This document shows, piece after piece, positions 24,145 to 48,158 of a DNA stretch of 48,745 nucleotides (position 1 is its first letter; the number at the start of each line of letters is the position of its first letter). The stretch comes from an uncultured Methanosarcinales archaeon. Lineage in GTDB: Archaea > Halobacteriota > Methanosarcinia > Methanotrichales > Methanotrichaceae. The notes under the pieces are model-generated. The model made no database searches and was not told the DNA's origin. It saw only the letters and a list, made by a program, of their open reading frames with translations. The stretch lies in contig CAIQHB010000035.1 of NCBI GenBank assembly GCA_903871465.1, positions 1 to 48,745 of the forward strand. Reading direction: 5' to 3'. A program made the translations under genes and the position numbers.

Positions 24145-25002
24145 TTAGTCCTCCAAGCGCACCAGGTTGAGCAGGGCTAGAGTCGCGAAAATCGCCTCTT
24201 CCACTCGAACCGTCTCCGTTCCCTGATGCGGAATGGTGTTGATCATTTCATACCTGTCCATTGATTCTTTGCTCAAGAAGGCATCCACGCCTCGCGCGGG
24301 CGAGCCGAATACTACCGCAAGATCGCGCTTCTGAACTGAGTGGCCCAATTTTGAGAGGAGTTCAGGCGTTAGGGCCTTTCCGTTCCGGGAAGTTAGAACC
24401 ACATGGCTGCCCTGCTCATGCTTTGCAGCTAAGTAGCCTTCCAGGCTCTCCACTATCTCGGTCTCGAACCCCCAGTAATGAGGGATCTCCTTCGGGTCCA
24501 CAGGCTCAGCGGCGAGCGGTTCATGCGAAAAGATTCTGACACTTAGGCGCTGCCCCACCGAGTATTTACCACCGGTACGAAGGGGAATAGGGCGATTGAT
24601 TCCGATTTCCACCCAGACGCCGCCATCAGATCCGACGCTTTCAACGACTGCTCCGACGCGAAACTCGCCAATCTTGAGCGATTCTGATTTTGAGTTTATG
24701 GGATGATGTGCAGTGCGTAAGGGCGGCAGCGTTCCCACATGGCGCAGCTCCTCCCGGCGCGGGATGAGCAATTTGCGCAGGTACTGCGGCGTTTCCATGT
24801 ACCGCAGGATCATGGCTATGAACCGGGAATCGTTGTATTCAGGATCTCTGTAGATCACGATGCGGTTCATGCGGAAGACTGCTGCTGCCCGTGCGATTTG
24901 GCCGACCTTGAGCGTGTTAACACGCGAATCCCTTCCCTCCATGGTGAGAGAGGACGGGATAAGGATGGCTCTCTCGCAGCAACCTATCATCAGATTTTCC
25001 AT
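24145..25002 (-). CDS. SPOUT-class RNA methyltransferase (DUF171/SPOUT1 family)
   Basis: 285 residues: N-terminal alpha/beta part (AILIPSSLT, LKVGQIARAAAVFRMNRIVIYRD), an inserted OB-fold (about 110-185) and the C-terminal trefoil knot with NTIPHQGTETVRVEEAI. Archaeal members head the S10 operon, and the eukaryotic homologue is SPOUT1/CENP-32, so an rRNA target is likely but unproven here. The TATA box at 25021-25030 predicts transcription starting about at the ATG (25002), a leaderless mRNA. A second ATG at 24990 is an alternative. It heads the whole 16-kb minus-strand operon. Confidence 0.88.
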   Translation of the reverse strand: MENLMIGCCERAILIPSSLTMEGRDSRVNTLKVGQIARAAAVFRMNRIVIYRDPEYNDSRFIAMILRYMETPQYLRKLLIPRREELRHVGTLPPLRTAHHPINSKSESLKIGEFRVGAVVESVGSDGGVWVEIGINRPIPLRTGGKYSVGQRLSVRIFSHEPLAAEPVDPKEIPHYWGFETEIVESLEGYLAAKHEQGSHVVLTSRNGKALTPELLSKLGHSVQKRDLAVVFGSPARGVDAFLSKESMDRYEMINTIPHQGTETVRVEEAIFATLALLNLVRLED

Positions 25003-41805: not shown

Positions 41806-42040
41806 CAAATCCTCTTCCGGCAAAGTCCTCATTCTGATCACTATAAGAATCGTAATCAAGTAGAACTGAGCGGTTGCTGTTATCGATCAATTAGTTTTAG
41901 TGCTATAGATTCTGAATGTGTAGAACGTGGAGCGCAACATATTCGGTGTTTGAGCCGAGAAGAGTCCTTATAATAATGTTTTGCGATTTAGTGGATATCG
42001 AAAAAAAGGGAATGGATTACAGGTTATACACACTAATCTG
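41806..42040. repeat. Flank repeat, copy A (downstream of the HEAT-subtilase gene)
   Basis: This stretch aligns by eye with 47693-47925. Shared words include AAATCCTCTTC, TTGCTG-TAT-GATCAATT, GGAGCGCAACAT, TTATAATAAT and ACAGGTTA/GCAGGTTA, with about 70% identity overall and small indels. Both copies lie on the 3' side of HEAT-coding sequence on the minus strand. The rest of 41772-42070 holds no gene that I can support; a short conserved minus-strand reading frame (from 41859) is discussed in the findings. Confidence 0.6.
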
Positions 42041-42070
42041 TGCCGGGGATCCTCCATTAAAGCCCTTCTG

Positions 42071-45000
42071 CTAACTCGTAGCGGGCGGCAACTTACCTGA
42101 CCCCTTAAGCCACTGAGCAATAGGGGTAGAGGTAGGTGCGGGAGTTGGAACTATTTCGGATACTTTATCACCGCCCCATTCCAACTCCTGCGGCCAAATT
42201 TCTCTCCTCTTCTGTCCCGTGAAGTGGTTGCCATCCGGCGAGAAGGTTATCTCTATATTCCCTTGCGTCCGGTTAGTGTCGCTGTCTATGAAGGTGCCTG
42301 TAAAGGTGTTGCCGCTGATAGTTCCGACTATGTCCATAGCGATCACGTGAGGGGCCTTGAGAGTTATGGAGCTTCCTGATTGGTTCAGTATATAGAGGAA
42401 CGACAGCCCACTTCCATCCATCATTTTGACGCCATTAATTATAGTCCAGGTCTGCCACTTGCCGCTCAAGCCCATTGAAGATTCAGCTAGCAGAGCTCTG
42501 TTGCAGCCGTTGGTATCAAGTCTCTTCACTACTACCGTGGCGCTGCCCTTTGTGGTCACATCCCAGTTTACAGCGCCCGCCAGAGCGAGGTGTATCTTTC
42601 GGTCGCTTCCAATAGCTCCCTCTCCTTGAAGCTCGATGGCCACGTCCGCACCTTTTTTAGTCTCGACGCTCAGGATCTTTGCCGTTACCTTCCAGTCATT
42701 TGGATATGCTGGATCGTTTTTAGCGACCAAATCAATTCGGGCCAATCCCAGAGCAGAATCTATGTCTGGGAATGGCGTTAAGTTCAGCTTCTTGCGTTGG
42801 TCATTTATTACCTTGAAAACTGCCTCATCAATCGCAAGGATGCGGCCGCCCAGTTTTGGAGGCGCAGGCACCTTCTTGCCATCAATATCAACACTTGTCC
42901 TGGCATTCTGCACCAGTATATCCTTGATCTGGCCAGCCGTCAATTGGGGATTCAGGGCGCGGATCAGTGCTGCTGCGGAGGTTACCTGGGGCGTGGCCAT
43001 GCTGGTGCCTCCCAAACTACTCTTTATACCGCCTTTATTGTCGAAGCCGCTTACTGATTCTTCACCGGGAGCAGCAAGGGTCACCTCGAAGTTATTGCTG
43101 GCCATGTTACTGTTTGCTGTGTTGGAGCCATCGTTCATGATGTTGCCCACCGTGATCATGTTGGGTATTTGAAGGCCTCCCGGAAATGTTCGGGCTCCAT
43201 CCGGCGATATTCTTTCATTTCCCGCTGAACAAACAAAGAGCACATCAGGATGATCGTTGGCCATCTTTTCAAAGAACTGTTTGGAGGCCGCCGCAAAATT
43301 GGGATCGGCTTCACGATTGCCCCATGAACAGCTTATGATTTTTGCTCCATCGTTTACGCTTTTATTGATTGCTAACAAATCGCCAAAGGTATAGGTCTTG
43401 CCGTTTGTCCACGCAATCTTCGTTGGATCATTTGGATCTGGCGCACTCTCTGAATTTTCTCCATAAGGAGGAGCATAGTTATTGATCATGGACGTTTCTA
43501 GCTTGTCCCCGAGCGGCTCAGATGCTATGCCGGTTATTCCACCATTATCGGGGTTTGCGGCAATGATATTCATAACGCTCGTGCCGTGACTACCTGATAC
43601 AGTATAATCAGCTATAAGTTTCCCATCGCTATCGTATATTTTTCCCAAAGAATTCTGCAGCTCGGAATTTTGCTCACTTGTATCTATCTTCACCTTGCCA
43701 TTGAACTCATCATTTCCTTTGTAAAGACCGTCATCTACTACGCCTACATGCACTTTCGATAGGGAAAGACCCGAGACTCTTATCAGATCCCAAGCCCGCT
43801 GGACACCTATCATCTCATAGTCTTTGCCGCGACCTCCTTCGGTATAGACTGGATCATCCAGGGGAGAGCACTGTATTCCTTGAACAGTTGCATCGAGGAC
43901 GGCTTGTTGGTTGGGGAAGGCCAGCTCCACGTCAGGATCCTGCTTGGCCTTGGCCACGGAGTCTATCAATTCAACCTCGGTCGTGCCAGAGGTCTCGATC
44001 TGGTAGAGGTTAATGTAGTTAAAGAACCCTACAACCTGGCCTCCCAGGTCGGATGCCAAGCGATCGGCATCTGTCCGGCCTTTTCCTTCCTTCAGCATTA
44101 CTACTACCTGGTTGGCTGGGACCATGCCCCACTCCGAGGTCTGGATGAGGGATGCGGAGCTCGGGATCGCAATCTGGTCGGGTCCAACCTGGTACGAACG
44201 GCTCTGACTTCCGCTTGTTTTGGTAAGGCCGGGTTTTGCTCCGGGCTCGATATGACCCTCGACTTTGCTAAATCCACAATTGCTTGAGTCCGAGTTCTGA
44301 GACCAAGTGGAAGGATCGGAATCCACTATGGTATACGTTCCGGGGGGCAAAATTTCTTCAGGATGAGCGATCCACATGGCATTGGGCACGCCGCCCTGGC
44401 CCGAGTTGGTCTCTACATTCCACGGCCCGTATATTGTGCCATCCTCTTTTTGCAGGCCTATAGTTCCTGCCTCTGTGGTGCCACTCCCATAATTCCAGTG
44501 ATAGTTCTCGATGGAGCTGATGTAATAGCTCCGGTCAATCGTAAAGCTCGGACTGCATGATGGAGAGGAGTCAACAGAACCCGCGTTTCCGTTGTAGAAA
44601 ATCTCAGCGTTTTCGAGTTGCTGGCCATCAAAATCGCCACCTTCGTTTGCAGGCGTTCCTTTTGGGGATGCTATTTTGTCTTGTGCATCACTTTGTTGCG
44701 GTTCTATTTTTTCCAAAGCCGCTGTGGCTTCCTCTCGAACGGTAGCATCATCATCATCATCTAGCGCCTGTTTCAACGGATCCTTTGCCAGATTATCGCC
44801 GATTTCTCCGAGGGAATAAGCAGCTCTCCATCTGACTTCACTGTCTTTGTCGCTTAGAGCTTGAATCAATGGGTTCACTGCGTCATGACTCTTGAGCTGT
44901 CCTAGACCAATTGCGGCATTGGCTCTGACACTAGAATCAGCATCATCATCAAGTGCTCGGATCAATGGTTCCACTGCCTTCGTTTCATTGATCGCCCCAA

Positions 45001-45418
45001 GGCTTGCTGCAGCTGTACTTCTGACAACCGCATCATCGTCATCTAGAGCTCGAATCAAGGGATCTATTGCTTTTCTGTCTTTGATCCATCCCAGGGCGCT
45101 CGCTGCGCCAGCTCGAACCTCAGAATCTTCATCGCTTAGCGCCAGAATCAATGGATCTACCGTTCTTGCATCTTTTAGAACAAATAGAGCCCTTGTAGCA
45201 TCTACCCGGACACCGGAATTACTGTCATTTAATGCTTCTATCAGTGGCCCTAAGGCCCTTGGATCTTGGAGATTTCCAAGAGCCAATGCAGCATCAGCTC
45301 TGACTGTATCGTTTTGGTCTGTGAGACCTATGATGAGGTTATCGACATCATCTGCAAAAGCTGGAATTGCTAATAAAATTATCAGTGAGAGAGCGCTTGC
45401 ATACGACAGTATTCCCAT
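42071..45418 (-). CDS. Secreted HEAT-repeat / subtilisin-like protease fusion
   Basis: 1115 residues. Signal peptide (about 1-22); seven HEAT/PBS-lyase-type repeats of 31 residues (about 24-240, units like DPRALGPLIEALNDSNSGVR); a beta-rich domain (about 275-395, YYISSIENYHWNYGSG and PPGTYTIVDSDPSTWSQNS); a propeptide-like region; and an S8 subtilase core with Asp in GVVDDGL (about 559), His in GSHGTSVMN (about 610), oxyanion Asn in CSAGN (about 729) and Ser in GTSMATP (about 803). A C-terminal beta region ends in a Pro/Thr linker. The triad is intact, so it is probably active outside the cell. GAGGTAG precedes the ATG. HEAT repeats N-terminal to a subtilase are unusual. Confidence 0.88.
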   Translation of the reverse strand: MGILSYASALSLIILLAIPAFADDVDNLIIGLTDQNDTVRADAALALGNLQDPRALGPLIEALNDSNSGVRVDATRALFVLKDARTVDPLILALSDEDSEVRAGAASALGWIKDRKAIDPLIRALDDDDAVVRSTAAASLGAINETKAVEPLIRALDDDADSSVRANAAIGLGQLKSHDAVNPLIQALSDKDSEVRWRAAYSLGEIGDNLAKDPLKQALDDDDDATVREEATAALEKIEPQQSDAQDKIASPKGTPANEGGDFDGQQLENAEIFYNGNAGSVDSSPSCSPSFTIDRSYYISSIENYHWNYGSGTTEAGTIGLQKEDGTIYGPWNVETNSGQGGVPNAMWIAHPEEILPPGTYTIVDSDPSTWSQNSDSSNCGFSKVEGHIEPGAKPGLTKTSGSQSRSYQVGPDQIAIPSSASLIQTSEWGMVPANQVVVMLKEGKGRTDADRLASDLGGQVVGFFNYINLYQIETSGTTEVELIDSVAKAKQDPDVELAFPNQQAVLDATVQGIQCSPLDDPVYTEGGRGKDYEMIGVQRAWDLIRVSGLSLSKVHVGVVDDGLYKGNDEFNGKVKIDTSEQNSELQNSLGKIYDSDGKLIADYTVSGSHGTSVMNIIAANPDNGGITGIASEPLGDKLETSMINNYAPPYGENSESAPDPNDPTKIAWTNGKTYTFGDLLAINKSVNDGAKIISCSWGNREADPNFAAASKQFFEKMANDHPDVLFVCSAGNERISPDGARTFPGGLQIPNMITVGNIMNDGSNTANSNMASNNFEVTLAAPGEESVSGFDNKGGIKSSLGGTSMATPQVTSAAALIRALNPQLTAGQIKDILVQNARTSVDIDGKKVPAPPKLGGRILAIDEAVFKVINDQRKKLNLTPFPDIDSALGLARIDLVAKNDPAYPNDWKVTAKILSVETKKGADVAIELQGEGAIGSDRKIHLALAGAVNWDVTTKGSATVVVKRLDTNGCNRALLAESSMGLSGKWQTWTIINGVKMMDGSGLSFLYILNQSGSSITLKAPHVIAMDIVGTISGNTFTGTFIDSDTNRTQGNIEITFSPDGNHFTGQKRREIWPQELEWGGDKVSEIVPTPAPTSTPIAQWLKGSGKLPPATS

Positions 45419-45450
45419 AATTCTACCTCGATCAAAGTATAATTCAAGCC

Positions 45451-45465
45451 AATAAAAAGATATTT
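45451..45465 (-). promoter_or_regulatory. TATA region of the HEAT-subtilase gene
   Basis: On the minus strand AAATATCTTTTTATT predicts a start near 45432. The short leader then contains GAGGTAG (45423-45429) before the ATG at 45418. Confidence 0.5.
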
Positions 45466-45480
45466 CGGTTAGCCATTTTT

Positions 45481-45612
45481 GTGGTCTTTCCCGAACCAGA
45501 CCTCCCGGTTCACGCCTGGCATTCGTACCTCAGTATTAGTAGTGTCTGACCTTGAGTGCGGTAAGCCTCCCACTCAGACCTCCCACGAGCGGGGTTCTCA
45601 TCCGCCGCACGC
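45481..45612 (-). mobile_element. Possible TnpB/IS605-type right-end (omega-RNA-like) remnant
   Basis: On the minus strand several stems follow one another: GAGTG...CACTC around GGAGGCTTACCG, and GGTCT...AGACC around GGTTCGGGAA, with GGGAGGTCTGAGTGGG upstream. This arrangement resembles the conserved 3' region seen after archaeal IS1341/tnpB genes. No tnpB coding sequence remains; the hydrolase gene occupies that side. The call rests on remembered sequence style and is weak. Confidence 0.28.
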
Positions 45613-46594: not shown

Positions 46595-47166
46595 GGAAAA
46601 ACCTCATAGCCGATTAACCGTTAAGAAATCGGTTGTGACTCTATTGGGCCAACCCTTAAAATAATTAACTCCTGTTTGGGGGACCATAAATCCGCCTTTT
46701 TTTGACTGCCCGATTGGTTCACAGTTTATTCAAATATTATGCACAAAGTGTGTGGTGTTATCCATATTTGATTATACAACATTCAAGGCCATAAAAGACA
46801 CTACAGATATTATTATAAATACACATTTCGACCTCGTAACCCCCCGATGTTGCGCGCCGGATTCTGCCGGGATTGTTGAATTCAGCTGATTCTAGTTAAT
46901 CGACAACAGGCAATTGCCGTGAATTCATTCCATAGAATATGGACTGACCAGGTGGGAAGATGTGATTTTAGAGCCAGTTAGAAGCTGGCTGGGGAAATGG
47001 AGTGAATCCTGCAGCTTACACTCACCGCGCCGTCCTGCGATTAGAATCAGCCAACAAATCCCTGCGCGAAGTTATTATGCCAGTTGAATTCAGTGCGCCT
47101 TCATTCGGAGTGATTTCGTCCCATTGAACTGTCTTCAAGAACCGACCGGACCTCATTGTCGTGCTG
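46595..47166. other. Gene-poor stretch upstream of the hydrolase
   Basis: No gene could be supported. It contains the hydrolase promoter, an inverted repeat AACCG/CGGTT near 46616-46634, and a 6-bp hairpin AGCCAG-CTGGCT at 46972-46990 that is soon followed by GAGTG...CACTC. These may belong to a small structured RNA or be chance. The 46760-46830 part is strongly AT-rich. Confidence 0.35.
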
Positions 47167-47456: not shown

Positions 47457-47692
47457 GAAAACCACGTTGAAGGCTTATGATCTGCCCTTTATGCCGGCAT
47501 CTCCTGGCATGAAAAGAGCTTCTTTACCATATGGGCTTCATTCTCGCGAAGCGGTAAGGACCATTTTCGGATGATGCATTTTACACGCACCAAATAATAT
47601 GATTAGGAAATGGGCCCCAGAAAATTTTTTTAAGGGCTCAGGCCAAGACCTGCAAGTTATGCATAGTCCCTTATGCAACCCATTCGGGTGGC
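47457..47692. other. Non-coding gap
   Basis: Nothing identifiable: AT-rich with short imperfect repeats (GCCGGCATCTCCTGGCAT near 47491). Two minus-strand ORFs that touch it have no family features. Confidence 0.4.
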
Positions 47693-47925
47693 CTAAATCC
47701 TCTTCTGCCAGAGTACCCATTCCAGCCACTATGAGAATGGAGATCAAGTAAAACTGAGTGGTTGCTGATATTGATCAATTGATCTTATTGCTATCGATTT
47801 CGACGATGCAGAACTTGGAGCGCAACATGAGGGAGATTGATGGTGAGAAGGTATTTATAATAATTTCATGTGGATTAAACGCTGTCGAAAAATTGAGGGA
47901 TGGCTTGCAGGTTACACATACTGCT
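47693..47925. repeat. Flank repeat, copy B (next to the HEAT remnant)
   Basis: A diverged copy of 41806-42040, in the same orientation. As with copy A, HEAT-coding sequence lies on its right (5' on the minus strand), so the two loci probably descend from one duplicated segment. Confidence 0.6.
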
Positions 47926-47966: not shown

Positions 47967-48158
47967 TCATATAGGAGACGATCCCTGGCATTGTGCGCTA
48001 CTCTGTCGCCATCCTCGTTTTGTCAGAGCTTTTTTTGCTTCCGATCGGACATCCTCCTTTTCGTCCTTGAGAGCCTGGATTAAGGGTTCTACGGCTCGGG
48101 TATTGTTGATCTTTCCGAGGGCTGCGCTATTGGCCGCAAAGTTCCACTGATGCTCAAT
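47967..48158 (-). pseudogene. HEAT-repeat gene remnant
   Basis: On the minus strand the frame 48158-47967 reads NSAALGKINNTRAVEPLIQA, then LKDEKEDVRSEAKKALTK. This is one complete and one partial HEAT/PBS-lyase repeat very like those of the HEAT-subtilase gene (compare SLGAINETKAVEPLIRALDD). There is no start, and the part to the right is replaced by another gene whose last codons overlap it out of frame. Confidence 0.65.

Follow-up and report, generated by a model that had tools for sequence, protein, structure and literature searches.

What is an array of HEAT repeats doing at the front of a protease that appears to leave the cell, and are the two really parts of one protein? The question is raised by a gene on the minus strand of a contig (G000:C35) of 48,745 bases, analysed here in its entirety and called the window, from a draft genome of 3.13 Mb (G000) for which a Methanothrix MAG from Lake Pavin was the closest named relative that we found. 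The gene is a single open frame with an ATG start, lying between an exported abhydrolase-like frame and heterodisulfide-reductase-like frames (the reductase label being read from translations). As judged from its translation, it encodes an apparently intact subtilisin-type protease, predicted to be exported, with a putative binding scaffold of seven HEAT units as its front end. Its parts and surroundings are the following:

42071..45418, minus strand: HEAT-subtilase gene, 1115 aa, one open frame with an orthologue (P0002) at 93% identity
45419..45495, minus strand: upstream region kept in the orthologue, with a GAGGT ribosome-binding-like site (blastn against locus L048, 88% DNA identity over the piece)
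45353..45418, minus strand: predicted signal peptide, residues 1-22, ending ...IPAFA/DD (hydropathy; kept in orthologues and in exported HEAT paralogues)
44696..45343, minus strand: seven HEAT/PBS units, residues 26-241 (Pfam, unit split, helix pairs of the model, PDB matches)
44243..44614, minus strand: accessory domain, about residues 269-392, probably all-beta, without a Pfam family (alignment of 16 related stretches)
43910..44113, minus strand: fervidolysin-like prodomain, residues 436-503 (PF22148; also in a paralogue and in G009)
42896..43756, minus strand: peptidase S8 domain, residues 555-841, with Asp562, His611, Asn734 and Ser806 (PF00082; motifs)
42074..42778, minus strand: C-terminal extension, residues 881-1115 (pairwise alignment with an S-layer paralogue)
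48012..48122, minus strand: remnant, end of another exported-type HEAT array (HEAT_2, 28.4 bits, in a 63-aa frame)

The signal peptide was judged by eye, from hydropathy and from its conservation in relatives, and both agree with the preliminary description of a secreted protein. Near the gene start, the search for RNA families gave only a chance-level match (E 0.037, below the gathering score).

In a draft genome of 81 contigs, an assembly artefact joining two genes has to be considered. However, the Lake Pavin MAG (G020; locus L048, JAPKXZ010000052.1) carries the same fusion, in a protein of 1082 aa that is 93% identical to that of the window and lacks alignment columns 39-69, exactly one 31-residue HEAT unit, as well as two single residues. 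By blastn the two genomes match at 42061-45495, in two pieces made up of the gene and 77 bases upstream; what else matches in the stretch compared consists of short copies of a dispersed element, and the flanking frames in L048, PAS histidine kinase-like and TPR-like according to their translations, are unlike those of the window. The probability of an assembly join is thus practically nil. A third orthologue, in G009, has a signal peptide, one HEAT unit (E 2.8e-7), the accessory domain, the prodomain and the S8 domain; in this copy a frameshift follows the catalytic Ser and the remainder continues in another frame. The HEAT and S8 parts are therefore not separate genes in all relatives, the outcome that would have spoken for a faulty join: the fusion recurs in two other genomes, with seven HEAT units in the window, six in L048 and one in G009.

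The fusion is nevertheless rare in what we sampled. It occurs in three of the 26 genomes of the genus, whereas strong matches to the protease core (E below 1e-30) were found in seven of them: G000 (in two places), G020, G009, G001, G013, G017 and G015, the last two with short frames only. Some match to the core exists in 25 of the 26, in most of them limited to a free-standing S8 protein of about 630 aa. At the level of the class, a search of 199 genomes provided 50 S8 regions among the matches listed (49 picked for their long frames and one from the window's own genome), which together with the genus loci gave 93 S8 frames. HEAT repeats were present in three of these 93, all members of one orthologue group, as detected with a profile built from 10 units, to which the window protein itself may have contributed. 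If frames with 60-mers in common are merged, 72 remain; the window gene and its orthologue then count as one. No HEAT-S8 join was seen among the 30 matches listed of 134 plasmid records, none of which covers 80% of the query. The statement that HEAT repeats in an extracellular protease are uncommon can thus be kept, within this class-level sample, for the join to S8, but not for the export of HEAT repeats as such, which we find family-wide (see below).

The array itself, announced as seven HEAT/PBS repeats in the preliminary description, is recognised by Pfam (HEAT_2, 4.3e-47; HEAT_PBS, 2.2e-33), splits into seven units of about 29-32 residues each, and is modelled by AlphaFold2 as seven antiparallel helix pairs over residues 19-238, most ten-residue blocks having a pLDDT of 60-87. 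The full-length model (mean pLDDT 35.2) is reliable for this part alone. Such tandem helix pairs of about 31 residues are those of HEAT/PBS repeat proteins, and in the PDB the modelled array is matched best by the artificial HEAT proteins called alphaRep (Z 30.3, at 1.9 A over 219 residues). The repeat exists at the protein level: Tandem Repeats Finder detected no array in this region, because the DNA copies of the seven units are only 42-60% identical. A recent tandem expansion of units can be rejected on the same grounds, and the divergence of the copies indicates that the array is old, whole units having apparently been lost from it or gained since.

The rear of the protein is an S8 domain (PF00082, 4.6e-29, 102.1 bits against a curated cut-off of 21.8) with the triad Asp562, His611 and Ser806 and the oxyanion Asn734, each within its family motif. 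HMMER alignments to solved subtilases span the His, Asn and Ser motifs, and the PDB matches of the core include fervidolysin (1r6v, E 7.5e-6). The complete Asp-His-Asn-Ser set reported at first sight is therefore real. What had been overlooked is a PF22148 prodomain between the HEAT array and S8 (24.3 bits, cut-off 21), also present in G009 (26.4 bits) and in a paralogue of the same genome (25.9 bits); PF22148 adjoining S8 is the arrangement of fervidolysin-like subtilases. The prodomain of such subtilases serves to fold the enzyme and to inhibit it, and is later removed by cleavage.

This prodomain shapes our view of what the HEAT array may do. Once the protein has left the cell by its signal peptide, the prodomain (residues 436-503) would fold and block the S8 domain, as in its family, until the protease itself cuts it off near its C-terminal end, at about residues 503-520. 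Since the HEAT array and the accessory domain both precede the prodomain, they would depart together with it, and it is because of this expected removal that we read them as a targeting or holding pro-region: an exchangeable front that would bind the cell envelope or a partner protein and so position the zymogen at the place of its release. We give about an even chance to this reading of the protein as an exported fervidolysin-like zymogen. The "self-inhibiting" N-terminal part proposed earlier fits the prodomain better than the HEAT array. The proposal that the array selects substrates is weakened, as the prodomain separates HEAT from S8. For this the array would have to remain with the active protease, attached or in tight association, and removal of the intervening prodomain would part the two; moreover, homologues without HEAT retain the same core. 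On the other hand, HEAT arrays of the consensus type do bind proteins (alphaRep structures are known in complex with their targets), the number of units differs among orthologues, as that of a recognition surface might, and the array is the part on which purifying selection is seen when the two nearest orthologues are compared. It may also be that the front half is never cut off. With this in mind we consider a substrate selector of the mature enzyme rather unlikely, and a targeting or holding pro-region likelier.

The selective constraints on the gene are not uniform. Between the window and L048, dN/dS is 0.28 for the HEAT part (dS 0.126), and 1.10 for the accessory domain, 0.89 for the prodomain and about 1.0-1.1 for S8 (dS about 0.04), these last ratios resting on few substitutions, with 2-9 synonymous changes each. 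In this close pair the protease thus bears no sign of constraint and the HEAT part alone appears constrained. Over the longer distance to G009, the ratios of 0.27 (prodomain) and 0.33 (S8) suggest long-term purifying selection on both, and the accessory domain has reached saturation at silent sites and has diverged much further than S8. The two halves of the gene, front and rear, seem to have had different histories. One could then argue that the gene is drifting and that domain shuffling has brought along the HEAT front as a neutral passenger without a specific function. The ratios near 1 in the nearest pair, the G009 frameshift, the unit numbers of 7, 6 and 1 in the three orthologues, and the divergence of the accessory domain all go in this direction. 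Against it, frames of 1115 and 1082 codons have stayed open in two genomes with all catalytic residues present, the low ratios of the HEAT part and, over the longer distance, of the prodomain and S8 speak of constraint, and the model contains seven well-formed helix pairs. We find a mere passenger improbable.

The accessory domain is a conserved stretch of about 124 residues that occurs in many other Methanotrichaceae proteins; the loci that we collected contain 16 distinct related stretches, mostly in other kinds of proteins. Of the "beta-domain" described earlier, the conserved stretch is real and an all-beta fold is probable, the model having a pLDDT of 18-32 here. Searched against Pfam, the first member had no match and eight members together gave one weak match (E 0.11); a profile search of the PDB returned only E 0.15 and above, with transthyretin first, and no viral relatives were found. 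In a tree of this domain the copies of the window and G009 do not group with support, so that a single origin of the fusion and several origins look the same.

The targeting or holding reading draws on what replaces the HEAT array in other proteins with the same core. A paralogue in the same genome (G000:C49; L013:6269-11131) is a frame of 1621 residues in which five S-layer PF07752 stretches precede a prodomain and S8 core that is 58% identical to that of the window over 567 residues, with its catalytic motifs intact; about the first 100 residues of the C-terminal extension are also common to both by pairwise alignment. An S-layer protein continuous with a subtilase is a candidate S-layer enzyme in its own right. 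Pfam finds no S-layer domain in the window protein, unlike its paralogue. In G013 the core is preceded by Big_9 and cadherin-like domains, and in G001 by a short front. The front end of the core thus appears to be interchangeable between HEAT, S-layer and cadherin-like domains, and a swap with modules of surface attachment points in the same direction as the targeting or holding reading.

The contig of this paralogue also encodes (L013:572-2638) a fusion of about 13 HEAT units with a caspase-like peptidase. This may speak for another reading of the window protein, as an effector of intracellular conflict or defence, in which HEAT would sense a trigger and the peptidase execute the response; PADLOC models of HEAT-ARM_XIII and subtilase match here, in single-domain matches only. 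A survey of conflict systems (PMC7159879) names both HEAT repeats and S8 peptidases, in other settings, and PMC3482391 has toxin immunity as its subject. However, the window protein has a signal peptide and a prodomain typical of exported subtilases, and its neighbours, described above, read as an exported abhydrolase and heterodisulfide-reductase-like genes. We therefore hold a defence effector to be very unlikely.

The surroundings of the gene contain two recurrent sequences. One is a dispersed element (window 46790-46985, minus strand) whose core is conserved and whose end, CGAAA..TATTTATAAAA, is BRE/TATA-like. Copies exist elsewhere: a DNA search found it in 14 of the 26 genus genomes, with 8 matches in the own genome, and its core pattern occurs in 16 of 50 family genomes, with 9 in the own genome (the reversed control gave 0 in all 50). 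A script found a TATA-like match in 26 of 30 element loci. Because 12 of these 30 have no 90-aa frame within 600 bases downstream, and only 4 a strongly signal-like start, describing the element as a promoter of exported genes would be too simple. Downstream of one copy (L231, G020:C60), a 431-aa frame reads as a run of X (bases unread or withheld). The other is a short motif, AGTRYRYRTAACYTGCA, on the minus strand at 42018-42034, 47651-47667 and 47906-47922, part of a possible hairpin GTTGYATA..TATRYAAC, which is found on the downstream side of the element's TATA and in many cases ahead of the element too. The own genome contains it at 21 places (reversed control: 0), and it occurs in 20 of the 26 genus genomes; the stop of the HEAT-subtilase gene is followed by one copy after 37 bases. 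Element and motif may represent a small RNA or mobile DNA. Since a copy of one or the other lies within about 1.5 kb of the gene in all three genomes, they may have taken part in its moves. Elsewhere in the window, Rfam recognises an L4-Archaeoglobi ribosomal leader at 24536-24629, minus strand (54.3 bits against 34.5), in this Methanothrix-type genome.

Is the export of HEAT arrays peculiar to this gene? When a profile of the signal peptide with the first unit is run on 50 family genomes, 49 give matches, the majority of which are HEAT units alone. Counting places where the match starts at model position 12 or less and ends at 50 or more, we recognised by eye, among the matches listed, 55 signal plus HEAT places in 29 genomes. 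Five of them (one each in G060, G062, G063, G029 and G064) look cytosolic, as no strong hydrophobic stretch is present. Without these, the list comprises about 50 places, distributed over 24 of the 50 genomes; hydropathy was checked on part of them. Exported HEAT proteins thus appear to be common throughout the Methanotrichaceae, also without a protease. In the own genome HEAT_2 has 34 matches in ten gene places, five with a signal-like start (C35, C39, C37:143 kb, C7 and C70) and two that are short broken frames (C35:48012 and C54). The first of these two is the nearby remnant noticed earlier, confirmed by HEAT_2 about 2.6 kb from the gene start; an Ig-like frame at the contig end (48089-48745, minus strand) continues into it with a change of frame, which looks like the broken junction of two genes. 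The suggestion of a family expanding in this organism fares less well, given the age of the units and the broken frames.

A wider picture would then be that the exported HEAT arrays of Methanotrichaceae are a scaffold for extracellular recognition, a role not usually given to HEAT repeats, in which whole units are lost or gained in frame and the C-terminal payloads are exchangeable, the payload of one lineage being a protease zymogen that the array delivers, or sets free when it binds a partner or sheath protein. We offer it tentatively, as a possibility on the unlikely side. If true, HEAT repeats, thought to be intracellular scaffolds, would be standing exported binding modules in acetate-using methanogens, and a core alternating between HEAT, S-layer and cadherin-like fronts would serve these cells to remodel their own envelope or that of a partner.

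No paper was found by literature searches for HEAT repeats with subtilase, signal peptide and propeptide, or for secreted HEAT repeats in methanogens, and none of the Methanothrix papers that surfaced names HEAT repeats. The protease and the exported HEAT scaffold are both known kinds of parts; it is their joining that is rare. Fervidolysin (PDB 1r6v) and the PF22148 subtilases resemble the window protein in having an N-terminal prodomain immediately before S8 and a C-terminal extension, but fervidolysin is not known to have a HEAT array or accessory domain ahead of the prodomain. Exported HEAT proteins of the family (e.g. the 426-aa frame of G000:C39) share with it the signal peptide, the ADDVD start and about seven units, and differ in having other C-terminal parts and no protease. 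The artificial alphaRep binders, which have units of 31 residues and reach 45-50% identity in the best matches, are designed and carry no enzyme, whereas here the array is joined to a protease. The STABLE protease and the S-layer protein tetrabrachion are separate proteins. STABLE, an archaeal cell-surface subtilase of Staphylothermus marinus, is described in PMC5744192 as bound to the stalk of tetrabrachion; this S-layer link resembles our S-layer paralogue, and the window protein instead has a HEAT array covalently in front.
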